Positions 20,749-25,393 of a stretch of 64,000 nucleotides of DNA are shown in pieces (the stretch's first letter is position 1; each line of letters starts with the position of its first letter). Where the stretch lies: assembly GCA_026225565.1 (NCBI GenBank), contig JAMFTA010000022.1, positions 1-64,000 of the forward strand, written 5' to 3'. The stretch comes from Caulobacter sp. GTDB lineage: Bacteria; Pseudomonadota; Alphaproteobacteria; Caulobacterales; Caulobacteraceae. A model generated the notes under the pieces. The model was not told where the DNA came from, ran no database searches, and worked only from the letters and a program-made list of their open reading frames with translations. Position numbers and translations under genes: made by a program.

Positions 20749-21678
20749 TTGGCCATCGCACCTGTGTCGTTCCACGCCTATGGGCGCGATTTCGACGGTT
20801 TCGCCCGCGATCTTGGCCAATCGTTCGAACGCTACGGCTTTGCAGTGGTGGCCGACCACGACCTCGACCCGGCCCTGATCGCGCGGGCGGCGGCGGCGGC
20901 CAAGGCCTTCTTCGCCCTGCCCGAGGCGATCAAGCTGCACTACAAAATCCCTGGCGGCGGGGGGCAGCGGGGCTACACCCCGTTCGGCATTGAGACCGCC
21001 AAGGGGGCCGAGCACTTCGATCTGAAGGAGTTCTGGCACGCCGGGCGGGACCTGCCGGACGGCCACCCCTATGGCGGCGTCATGCCGGGCAATGTCTGGC
21101 CGGTGGAGATCGCCGATTTTCACGCCGCCGTCGGGGGACTCTACGACGGTCTAGACCGACTGGGCGCCCGCCTGCTGCACGCCATCGCCCGACATCTGGG
21201 TTTGGCGGACGACTATTTCGCCGCCCCCACCCATCTCGGCAACAGCATCCTTCGCCTGTTGCACTATCCGCCCGCGCCCTTCGACGGGCCGAACGTGCGC
21301 GCTGGCGCCCATGAGGACATCAACGCCATCACCCTGCTCCTCGGCGCGGAAGAGGCGGGACTGGAGTTAAAGGACCGGGACGGGCGCTGGCTGGCGGTGG
21401 ATCCGCCTGAGGGGTCGGTGGTCTGCAATATCGGCGACATGCTGCAGCGGCTGACCAACCACGTCCTGCCCTCGACCACCCACCGGGTGGTCAATCCGGC
21501 GCCGGAGCGGCGGGGCGTCGCCCGCTACTCCATGCCCTTCTTCCTGCACTTCGCCCCGGACTTCGAGATCGAGACCCTGCCCGGCTGCATGTCGGCCGAG
21601 CGCCCCGACCGCTACCCGCAGCCGATCACCGCCCAAGCCTACCTCGATCGGCGCCTGCGCGAGATCAAGCTGGCCTGA
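20749..21678 (+). CDS. Isopenicillin-N-synthase-like 2-oxoglutarate/Fe(II) dioxygenase
   Basis: The 309-residue product has the DIOX_N start (GFARDLGQSFERYGFAVVAD) and a 2OG-FeII_Oxy core. Iron ligands His188 and Asp190 lie in GAHEDINAITLLLG, and His245 in PSTTHRVVNP. The 2OG-binding RxS motif is present in GVARYSMPFF. The family is large and the substrate cannot be told. The start codon is TTG, backed by an AGGAG seven bases upstream. It follows pyrD by 30 bases, so co-transcription is likely. Confidence 0.88.
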   Translation: MAIAPVSFHAYGRDFDGFARDLGQSFERYGFAVVADHDLDPALIARAAAAAKAFFALPEAIKLHYKIPGGGGQRGYTPFGIETAKGAEHFDLKEFWHAGRDLPDGHPYGGVMPGNVWPVEIADFHAAVGGLYDGLDRLGARLLHAIARHLGLADDYFAAPTHLGNSILRLLHYPPAPFDGPNVRAGAHEDINAITLLLGAEEAGLELKDRDGRWLAVDPPEGSVVCNIGDMLQRLTNHVLPSTTHRVVNPAPERRGVARYSMPFFLHFAPDFEIETLPGCMSAERPDRYPQPITAQAYLDRRLREIKLA

Positions 21679-21686
21679 ACCGCTCC

Positions 21687-23282
21687 CTACTGGGCGAGGC
21701 GCAGGTGGCCGATGGAGCCGGCGATGTTGGCGAAGGCGGCGGCGAGCTGGCTGGAAGCGGTGACGTCGATATAGTTGGAGGCCGACGAGGCGCAGTTCTG
21801 CAACAGCGTCTTGATGCCCGTATCGGTCACCTCCACCGGCACGGTATAGATGACGATGTTCTGCGCCTTCATATTGGTGCAGAGCTTGGCCAGGCGGTCG
21901 TTCAGGGCGCTGGCCGGATCGGTGAAGCTGCCGGCGTCCGTGGAAATCCGGTTCTGCCAGATATAGCCCAGGGCGGTGTAGGCGGAGTCGTCCTGTCCGT
22001 TGACGCCGGTGCCATAGGTGTTCTGGCCGTCGGTGACCAGGACGGCGATCTTGGTGGTGCCGACCGTGCCATAAGCGACGCCGTCGGCGAACGGGGCGTT
22101 GGGCGACAACAGGTGCCAGCCCCAGACTAGGCCCACCGGAATTTCCGTGTCACCGCTGGCGATCATCGCTTTCAGTTCCGTCTTCACTGCTGTCATGTCC
22201 GTGGTCATACGCAGCAGCGCCGCGGTCTGGCAGCCCGCGTTCGGGCCAATCGCGCCGCCCCAATAGCCGTGGGTGCCGCTCGCGGGAGCCTTGGTGTACT
22301 TCGAAGGATAGCCCTGGCGTGTGCTCCAAGTGCTGCTGGTGCTTACGTCCGCCTCATAGTTGTTATAAAAATCGTAGTAGGTCTTACCATTTTTGGTCGC
22401 CGTGGCGCCGCCATAGCCGGATGTCGTCTTGATCGAATAGTCGTCCGGCTCATCCGGCGCGAAGAAGGGCACGAACATGCTGGCGGGCACCGCCGGATTG
22501 GGCGCCGTGTCCTGAATGTCGTAGGGCATGGGCCGGTCTTCCACGCAGCCGCCCCAGGTCACGCCCATCTGGCTCAACAGGGTGAAGCGGTCGGTTGAGC
22601 TGGTGAATATGTCGGGCCCATAGGCGCTGGGCTGGGTCCCGGTGATCCACGAGGCGTTCGCATAGGTCGAGCCCACGTTCACCGCCATCGAGAAAGGCAC
22701 CACGCCGATCTTCAGCGCCGTCGGGTCGCTGGTGGAGACCTGGCTGGACAAGGTGTTCACCAAGGTGGTCGCCGCGCTGGTCAGATCGGTCAGCTTGTTG
22801 TCTTGGGACATGGAGCCGGTGTTGTCGAGCACCAGGGCCAGCTCGATATGGCTCAGCCCCCACTTCACCGTGGTGTTGGCGGTGATCGGCACCTGGGTAA
22901 TCCCGGCCAGGCCGCCGATGGTGGTGGTCACCGAGGCGGTGGCCGTCAGAACGACGGCTTGGGTCGAGGTGCTGACCGACACCGTATAGTTGGGGCCGAT
23001 GCTGCCGTCGTGCATGTTGGCCTTCATCCAGGCGTTGACGGCGGTCTGTATCTGGGCCGTGGTCGAGCTCGCGGACATGTGAGAGATGGCCAGGCCCGCG
23101 GCGTCCAGGGCGTCCTGCAGGTTGTTGCGGCTGGTGGTGGCGCGTCCCACATCGATGGCCACGCCCACACCCAGCACCATGGGAATGGCGAGGAGGCCGA
23201 ACATTGGCGCAATGGCGCCCGAACGCGACCGGCCGAAGAGCCGCGCGCCGGCCCACAGTCGCCTTGTCCACTCCAGCGCCAT
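21687..23282 (-). CDS. TadG-like pilus-assembly protein with VWA domain
   Basis: The 531-residue product has a basic start, then a TadE/TadG-type membrane segment (SGAIAPMFGLLAIPMVLGVG, about 21-40) and DVGRATTSRNNLQDALDAA. A von Willebrand A domain follows, with the MIDAS-type motif D153-N-T-G-S157 and later AVLVTDGQNTYGTG. Family members are envelope proteins of the Flp/Tad pilus system. No other tad genes are adjacent. ATG at 23282 with AAGAGGAA upstream is preferred to the GTG at 23366. The gene converges on the dioxygenase gene with 8 bases between. Confidence 0.85.
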   Translation of the reverse strand: MALEWTRRLWAGARLFGRSRSGAIAPMFGLLAIPMVLGVGVAIDVGRATTSRNNLQDALDAAGLAISHMSASSTTAQIQTAVNAWMKANMHDGSIGPNYTVSVSTSTQAVVLTATASVTTTIGGLAGITQVPITANTTVKWGLSHIELALVLDNTGSMSQDNKLTDLTSAATTLVNTLSSQVSTSDPTALKIGVVPFSMAVNVGSTYANASWITGTQPSAYGPDIFTSSTDRFTLLSQMGVTWGGCVEDRPMPYDIQDTAPNPAVPASMFVPFFAPDEPDDYSIKTTSGYGGATATKNGKTYYDFYNNYEADVSTSSTWSTRQGYPSKYTKAPASGTHGYWGGAIGPNAGCQTAALLRMTTDMTAVKTELKAMIASGDTEIPVGLVWGWHLLSPNAPFADGVAYGTVGTTKIAVLVTDGQNTYGTGVNGQDDSAYTALGYIWQNRISTDAGSFTDPASALNDRLAKLCTNMKAQNIVIYTVPVEVTDTGIKTLLQNCASSASNYIDVTASSQLAAAFANIAGSIGHLRLAQ

Positions 23283-23466
23283 CGCCCAATATTCCTCTTG
23301 CAGAAAATCCGAGATATCCCGCCTACGAAGCGCAAGAATGAACGGTTCCGGTAAATAACTCTTCACAAAGAACGGTTAGCGAATATTCATCATGCTTTTT
23401 GTCCGAGGTTTAACTGTTCAGGAACGGCAGTTGCTTTAAGGGGGACCGATAGCGCCAGAGGTTCCC

Positions 23467-24621
23467 ATCGCGTTCGATCCCGCCATCGCCGCCGCCTATA
23501 TCGACGCGATCCCCAGGGCCGCCCGCGCGCTCGCCGCCGCCCGCACCGCGGCCGATCACTGGCGTCTGGGATTTGGCTGGGCGGCCGCTGGCGTCGCTCT
23601 GCTTCTCATTGTGAAAAGCCGCCTGCTTGTGCGGGTGCGTGAGCGCGTGGCGGCGATGACGACGCGGGCCTGGCTCGTTCGCCTGATCTGCGCCTTCGCC
23701 TTCGTGATCGTCTTGGAGATGCTGCGGTTCTCCGCCGCCGTCGTAGCGGATCTGGCCTGGCCAGCCGGCGGCGATCTGGCGTCGCAGCTAAGATCGGCGC
23801 TGTTGGAGACGCCCTGGCGGCTGCTCTATGAGGGGCTTGGCCTCTGGCTGCTCATCGGCGTGATCGGGCGTTGGCCTCGATGGGGCTGGGCGGGGCTGAG
23901 CGCCGTCGCCAGCCTGGCCATCTTTTGCGTCGTGCTGCTTCCCCCCGTCTTGCTGGCGCCCCAGGGACGGGGCGACGTCGTGGCCGCCGGCCCGCAGGCC
24001 CAGCCCATCCTCGCCTTCGTTCGCCGAGGGGGGCTGGACGTCCATGTCCTTTACGCCTTCGAAAGCGCCGACCCTCTCGCCGCAGATATGGAGGGATGGG
24101 GGGGCATCGCGAAGGTCGACAGCGGCGCCCATGCCGCCGTCAGCCGCGCCGCCCTGGCCGCGCCGAGCGCCCAAACCTACGCGGCCATCGGGCATTTGCT
24201 CGGCCATTACCGACACGGCGACCTGTGGTCGATGGCCCTTTTGTGGTCGCTAATGGGCGCCGGATTTTTCCTGGCGGTCGCCCTCCTCAGCCGCCCGATC
24301 GCCCGCGCGTTCGGGCAAGGCGAGGCGAGCGGGGCGCTGGATGCATCAGGACCGCCGGTGGTCGGACTGATCGCTTGGGCGTCGCTTTTGATCGCCGTCC
24401 CGGTGTTCAATCGCTTCGATCAGGCGATCGACTATCGCGCCGACGACTACGCCATGGCGCTGACCGAGGATCCGGACGCGCTTTGCCGTTGGCTAGTGGC
24501 GACCGAACAGACCGACAAGGTCGATCCATCGCCGCTTGAGACGTTGATCTTCTACGACCATCCGCCGCTCAAGGCCCGCCTGCTCCACGCCATGCAATGG
24601 AAGGCGAACCACGGGTTTTAA
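23467..24621 (+). pseudogene. M48 (Ste24-like) peptidase homologue lacking catalytic residues and a normal start codon
   Basis: The open frame matches CAAX-prenyl-protease-like M48 membrane enzymes: FDPAIAAAYIDAIP start, LLVRVRERV, several membrane segments, and an end reading DPSPLETLIFYDHPP and AMQWKANHGF. The zinc motif HExxH is HLLGH (243-247), so the catalytic Glu is Leu. The ExxD-type third ligand is replaced (YRADDY, Arg324). The expected start position reads ATC, six bases after an AGAGG site; the first GTG is at 23611, which would cut off 48 residues. No internal stop is present. It may be an expressed pseudoenzyme or an early pseudogene. Confidence 0.7.
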
Positions 24622-24625
24622 CCCG

Positions 24626-25393
24626 ATGTTTGCGCTCGGGCGCCACACTCCACCCATGGTCAGCGCCATCTTCTGGGAAATCGTCGCCTTCGCCGTTTTC
24701 GGCGCCCTGTCGTTCGCGTTTCACGATCGCCAAGATCAGCCTCTGATCCGTCGCGACTTCATCCTCGACGCCATCTATTTCCTCGCCGGCCTCCTGGTCT
24801 ACACTCAGTTCCTCGGCTGGCTGTTCGCCCATGTGTCGCCGCCCGCCGCCGTCCGCATCGTCGGCCGCTGGCCCCTCTGGGTGCAGGCGGTCGTGCTGCT
24901 GGTGGTCTACGACGGCCTGCAATATGGGCTGCACCGCTGGTTCCATGGCGCCTGGTTCTGGCCCTATCACGCGGTGCATCACAGCGCTGAGGAGATCGAC
25001 ATCCTCACCGGCAACCGCAATCATCCGCTGAATTTTCTGCTCGGCGTCGGCGCTCCCACCGCCCTTTTGCTGCTGGTGGGATTTTCGCCCGAGGCCTTCG
25101 CCGTCCTCGCCCCGATCAATTTCGTCATGGCCTGCCTGGTTCACGCCAACCTCAACTGGACCTACGGCCCCTTTCGTTATGTGATTTCCAGCCCGATGTT
25201 CCATCGCTGGCACCACGCCATCGTCGCGGGCAGCCAGTCGCGCAACTATGCGCCCAACTTTCCCGTCTGGGACCTGATGTTCGGCAGCTTCTACATGCCA
25301 GTGGGGGAAAAGCCCCTGGCCTATGGCGCCCCCGAAGTGCCCGGCCATTTCATCGGCCAGCTGATCCATCCGTTCCGCAGGTCTAACGCCTGA
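24626..25393 (+). CDS. Fatty acid hydroxylase / sterol desaturase family protein
   Basis: The 255-residue integral membrane protein has the di-iron histidine boxes of this family: HRWFH, HAVHHS and HRWHH, with a further H in NHPLNF. Four to five hydrophobic segments surround them. Such enzymes insert oxygen or double bonds into lipids; the exact lipid is unknown. The nearest alternative start is MVSAIFW at residue 11. The last 11 bases overlap the end of the convergent mtgA gene. Confidence 0.9.

Follow-up and report, generated by a model that had tools for sequence, protein, structure and literature searches.

The window analysed here, a stretch of 64,000 nucleotides from a Caulobacter sp. 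assembly (242 contigs, 3.69 Mb), contains a gene for a Ste24-like membrane protein of peptidase family M48 that has lost the catalytic glutamate and belongs to a small, rare family of Caulobacteraceae proteins encoded directly beside a hydroxylase. We propose, at an even chance of being right, that these proteins are a dead M48A membrane-protein family which forms a two-gene unit with the hydroxylase and acts as its non-proteolytic partner. The finding is a family of bacterial pseudopeptidases that is conserved and has a hydroxylase gene as its constant neighbour; the open literature searched contained no report of a bacterial M48/Ste24 family of this naturally dead, conserved kind. The two genes of the window are as follows.

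23467 to 24621, plus strand: pseudo-M48 (Ste24-like) membrane protein with 384 codons and a stop when counted from the ATC, recognized by its PF01435 match and the four-member alignment
24626 to 25393, plus strand: fatty-acid-hydroxylase-superfamily protein (PF04116), starting after a 4-base gap from the pseudo-M48 stop

The assignment of the intact frame to the M48/Ste24-like proteins, made in a preliminary description of this DNA, was confirmed. The open frame extends from 23440 to 24618, is closed by TAA at 24619–24621 and contains no internal stops, and its product matches PF01435 (Peptidase_M48) with 28.3 bits (cut-off 20.3). The three other members identified below score 38.6–44.8 bits against the same model, and a profile of all four matches Ste24p (PDB 4il3, E 4.6e-8). 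An ordinary catalytic M48A paralogue (HEMGH; L002, G000:C108:2834-3997), 31% identical, is encoded on another contig of the window genome. The hydrophobic segments of the window protein lie at positions similar to those of the catalytic paralogue; the AlphaFold model is poor (mean pLDDT 40.7), so that retention of the substrate chamber is deduced from homology only.

The residue changes were established by aligning the four members to 43 catalytic relatives and Ste24p, and the positions concerned are listed here.

24193 to 24207, plus strand: H243-L-L-G-H247, both zinc His kept and catalytic Glu replaced by Leu (numbering from ATC)
24085 to 24087, plus strand: Asp207, Asn in 43/43 catalytic relatives and Asp in 4/4 members
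24220 to 24222, plus strand: Asp252, His in 40/43 catalytic relatives and Asp in 4/4 members
24430 to 24444, plus strand: D322-Y-R-A-D326, with Asp322 at the third zinc-ligand position and Arg324 member-specific
24586 to 24588, plus strand: His374, R/M/K/N in relatives and His in 4/4 members

The catalytic Glu (position 244) is present in all 43 catalytic relatives and in none of the four members, in agreement with the preliminary description, in which the HExxH motif was read as HLLGH. The third-ligand Glu of E-x-x-A-D, likewise found in 43/43 relatives, corresponds to Asp322 in the window protein and to Asn in the other three members. The earlier suggestion that Arg had replaced the Glu of an EAD-type motif resulted from a register slip: Arg324 lies at +2 from the ligand column, where relatives have D/E/A and Ste24p has Q, and the alignment to these proteins rules it out as the lost third ligand. 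The comparison with M48 homologues that had been proposed at that stage thus upheld the loss of the catalytic Glu but not the role given to Arg. Because the ligand column is occupied by Asp322, the third ligand of the window protein is altered conservatively, while Glu 244 is the clear loss. With both the HExxH Glu and the third-ligand Glu that mark active M48 peptidases absent, the pseudo-M48 proteins are presumably unable to cleave peptides.

H243, G246, H247, A325, D326, H365, P366 and R371 are retained in 4/4 members. A second set of invariant residues (D207, D252, R324 and H374) is specific to the clade, being absent or nearly so in catalytic relatives. All four members lack the substrate-side strand Q-x-N-x-Y-T-x-N. 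Of the 122 positions that are conserved among catalytic relatives, only 23 are unchanged throughout the four, which indicates fast evolution of the pseudo-M48 proteins. The invariance of H243, H247, H250, D252 and H374 in all members, and the novelty of D207, D252 and H374 to the family, could reflect a re-tooled metal site in which the two His together with Asp207, Asp252 or Asp322 and His374 support a different reaction or a structural metal. We consider this quite unlikely, as the third ligand is Asn in three members and the spatial meeting of these residues is conjectural; moreover, we know of no activity for such a site.

Three further members came from 390 Caulobacteraceae genomes, which were searched with the window protein and with the relative identified first; they are designated by their genomes as G010 (HLIGH), G066 (HLAGH) and G068 (HVIGH). 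These fall in genera g9 and g21, the window in g1, and at least one of the four known members comes from a metagenome-assembled genome (G010, JANWHQ010000143.1, MAG CRAIB_MAG19). The four proteins are 25–45% identical (34% between the G010 member and the window protein); the G066 member was matched with 297 bits, catalytic relatives with at most 217. The G068 member was found via a high-scoring neighbour hydroxylase with an M48 match beside it. The existence of three further members rules out a lone pseudogene. An order-wide profile search, together with class- and order-wide hydroxylase searches, all on samples, revealed no members outside Caulobacteraceae, and more distant ones may exist beyond the sampled genomes.

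In a maximum-likelihood tree, the four members form one group (99/99; 100% of bootstrap trees), and the sequences thus indicate shared ancestry, with the reservation that the member branches are very long (1.4 to 3.95, the window branch being 3.95), which elicited a warning from the tree program. Long-branch attraction could aid such a grouping; however, the shared residues and the tree of the neighbouring hydroxylases argue against an artefact and provide independent support. The loss of the catalytic Glu is old and common to the family; if it happened once, as this tree indicates, conservation between members was held after the loss.

Since synonymous sites are saturated, codon positions were compared in place of a numeric dN/dS. 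Between the window and G066 genes, agreement at four-fold sites is at chance level (0.395, expected 0.430), whereas the values are 0.523 (expected 0.261) for second codon positions and 0.317 (expected 0.087) for amino-acid identity; the G066 and G010 proteins reach an identity of 0.454. Saturated synonymous sites combined with conserved second positions indicate that purifying selection has acted on the protein since catalysis was lost. The preliminary description had leaned to selection on the basis of the intact 385-codon frame; the frame stands, but is by itself weak evidence, since the opposite strand of this GC-rich DNA carries unrelated ORFs of ~300 codons, and the weight is carried by the comparative data. 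The non-catalytic role of a retained pseudoenzyme, as favoured there, is supported across the family by the three additional members with the same catalytic loss, their single tree group, the saturated synonymous sites with conserved second positions and the shared neighbour. A young pseudogene, the other option named, is very unlikely as an account of the Glu loss, which is old and shared, and is possible for the ATC start, a feature of the window copy only.

The hydroxylase gene adjoins the pseudo-M48 gene on the same strand in 4/4 loci (window 23467–25393; L049 4657-6678 in G066; L050 7405-9356 in G010; L065 1983-3973 in G068). It lies downstream in the window, where the preliminary description had overlooked it, and upstream in the other three genomes, where the junction is a 3-base gap (G066) or a start/stop overlap (G010 and G068). 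That the pairing was retained while the gene order was swapped points to a functional connection more than to a merely inherited neighbourhood. The window hydroxylase matches PF04116 with 92 bits (cut-off 31) and has intact His boxes (HRWFH, HAVHH and HRWHH), which are invariant in the four neighbours. With a hydroxylase profile built from three of them, the four neighbours were the best four matches among the 390 genomes (525, 512, 425 and about 370 bits); the next match, at 269 bits, has no adjacent M48 gene. A further 30 hydroxylase loci of the family, order and class were examined, and all lacked an M48 neighbour within about 1.5 kb. The hydroxylase tree unites the four (99/95) and places the window copy on the first branch, an order that agrees with the M48 tree if the latter is rooted on catalytic relatives. 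Adjacency in all loci is thus accompanied by matching trees, and these two features suggest a partnership between the products. The NCBIfam equivalog model for the ornithine lipid hydroxylase OlsE gave 95.7 bits for the window protein (cut-off 475), which rules out the assignment of the neighbour as OlsE.

Genes related to Tad pili were observed around the pair in each genome. A TadG-like gene lies next to it in the window (21687–23366, minus strand), and another about 8 kb from the G066 pair (L069 429-2138); the G010 pair is about 3.4 kb from pil_N and two TadE genes (L050 2340-4042), and the G068 pair sits between pil_N and cpaA-cpaC-cpaD-like genes (L065 1482-1928 and 4985-8792). A gene for a 2-oxoglutarate Fe(II) dioxygenase (DIOX_N + 2OG-FeII_Oxy) is also found near the TadG-like gene in the window (20749–21678) and in G066 (L069 5624-6616). 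The presence of Tad-related genes near 4/4 loci could mean that the pair is part of the Tad/Flp pilus machinery, which we judge distinctly improbable: an inherited neighbourhood would look alike, several housekeeping genes intervene in G066, and to our knowledge no functional link between this machinery and the pair has been described.

Under the preferred reading, a non-proteolytic partnership, the pseudo-M48 protein would be an inner-membrane subunit, accessory or substrate-holding, of the hydroxylase encoded beside it, which would be a membrane enzyme of the di-iron type. The old substrate-binding chamber might bind a lipid or a lipidated substrate, stabilize the hydroxylase or control it. 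One could instead imagine that it acts on a live M48 paralogue as a dominant-negative or regulatory partner, in the manner of an inactive subunit, and the window genome does encode the catalytic paralogue described above. This seems very improbable, because that paralogue is on another contig while the conserved neighbour is the hydroxylase, and because the dead copy is the only one in G010 and the sole match in G068. Indeed, G010 has no other match to the M48 family of the pseudo-M48 protein, which suggests that the dead protein needs no live paralogue of that type.

The start of the window gene requires separate consideration, and involves two codons.

23467 to 23469, plus strand: ATC in place of the ATG of G066, with CAGAGG 5 bases before it (CAGAGG-TTCCC)
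23611 to 23613, plus strand: GTG, the earliest ordinary start codon in frame (scan for ATG/GTG/TTG)

Two earlier observations hold here: ATC occupies the natural start position at a suitable distance from AGAGG, and no ATG, GTG or TTG lies between the upstream stop (TAA, 23437–23439) and GTG 23611. In the alignment with the intact G066 relative, (I)AFDP... faces MAAFDP..., so that ATC falls at the position of the ATG, and the residues past it still resemble those of relatives (AFDPAIAAAYIDAIP versus FDPAAATAAYLAQLP), which implies that translation of this region continues or ceased only recently. With initiation at GTG 23611, part of the first predicted membrane helix (residues 39–57) would be missing. 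Starts in the other genomes are a standard ATG at the corresponding position (G066), probably TTG (G068) and an ATG overlapping the hydroxylase stop (G010). The G010 copy carries an in-frame TAA at codon 13 (L048 4437-4439), its remaining frame being intact. Defects of the start region, within the first 13 codons, therefore affect two of the four copies, those of the window and G010, and these frames have none elsewhere.

A rival reading is that the family is functional but the window copy was recently silenced by a change of ATG to ATC, with no further decay yet. The ATC lies exactly at the G066 ATG position and is followed by 144 bases with no ordinary start, no obvious ribosome-binding sequence precedes GTG 23611, the window branch is long, and the G010 copy also has a start-region lesion. 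Silencing nevertheless appears unlikely to us, given that the 384 codons are free of any other lesion, that indels relative to the other members, including a 6-codon insertion, are all in frame, that the codon-position GC (0.72/0.51/0.82) is like that of adjacent genes, and that all clade-specific invariant residues are present. Across the 384 codons no stops, frameshifts or lost coding constraint of the kind that marks a pseudogene were found, and the ATC start is the single defect. A separate observation is that infC of the window genome (L099, G000:C46:3524-3733) seems to begin with ATT (ATTCGTCGTCCCATG after AGAGAGG). Such a start is probable for infC, and implies that AUN starts can exist in this genome, nothing more. 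In a reconstituted system, IF3 was found to disfavour weak third-base pairs at initiation, AUC mismatches included (PMC10158994), so that initiation at AUC would be weak. Assembly error, weak use of AUC, use of GTG 23611 and recent silencing are all possible explanations of the window start; most likely, production of the protein continues, be it through weak initiation at AUC or because the ATC is an error of the assembly. A bolder version of our proposal, that a Ste24-type intramembrane protease was turned into a dedicated non-proteolytic subunit of a membrane lipid hydroxylase (or into a new metal site), with the two start defects reflecting a non-standard or downstream start, is tentative and somewhat doubtful.

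The best-known pseudoproteases are those of animals (iRhoms and similar proteins). A bacterial M48/Ste24 family that is naturally dead, conserved and accompanied by one fixed neighbour gene would offer a simple genetic system for studying what the Ste24 scaffold does once proteolysis is lost. Human ZMPSTE24, with its protease-independent role, raises that question (PMC9601121).

With respect to known systems, the pseudo-M48 proteins are homologous to M48A enzymes (Ste24p, ZMPSTE24 and bacterial CAAX prenyl protease 1-like proteins, PF01435) across the membrane and catalytic domains, and share with them the zinc His pair, the second-shell AD and the HP...R motifs. They differ from M48A in the replacement of the catalytic Glu by Leu/Val and of the ligand Glu by Asp/Asn, in the loss of Q-x-N-x-Y-T-x-N, and in having a fixed hydroxylase neighbour. 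The neighbour has the His boxes and domain of the PF04116 superfamily, to which OlsE belongs, but scores far below the equivalog cut-off of that enzyme. The closest functional parallel is the catalytically dead ZMPSTE24 E336A, which is still antiviral and whose binding to IFITM3 is stronger than that of the active enzyme (PMC9601121). The same Glu is lost in both cases, and the mutant demonstrates that a Ste24 scaffold works without proteolysis and binds a small membrane protein; by analogy, the pseudo-M48 protein may serve as a scaffold for its hydroxylase. However, E336A is a laboratory mutant of an active enzyme with a eukaryotic partner, whereas the loss in the pseudo-M48 proteins is natural, old and family-wide.
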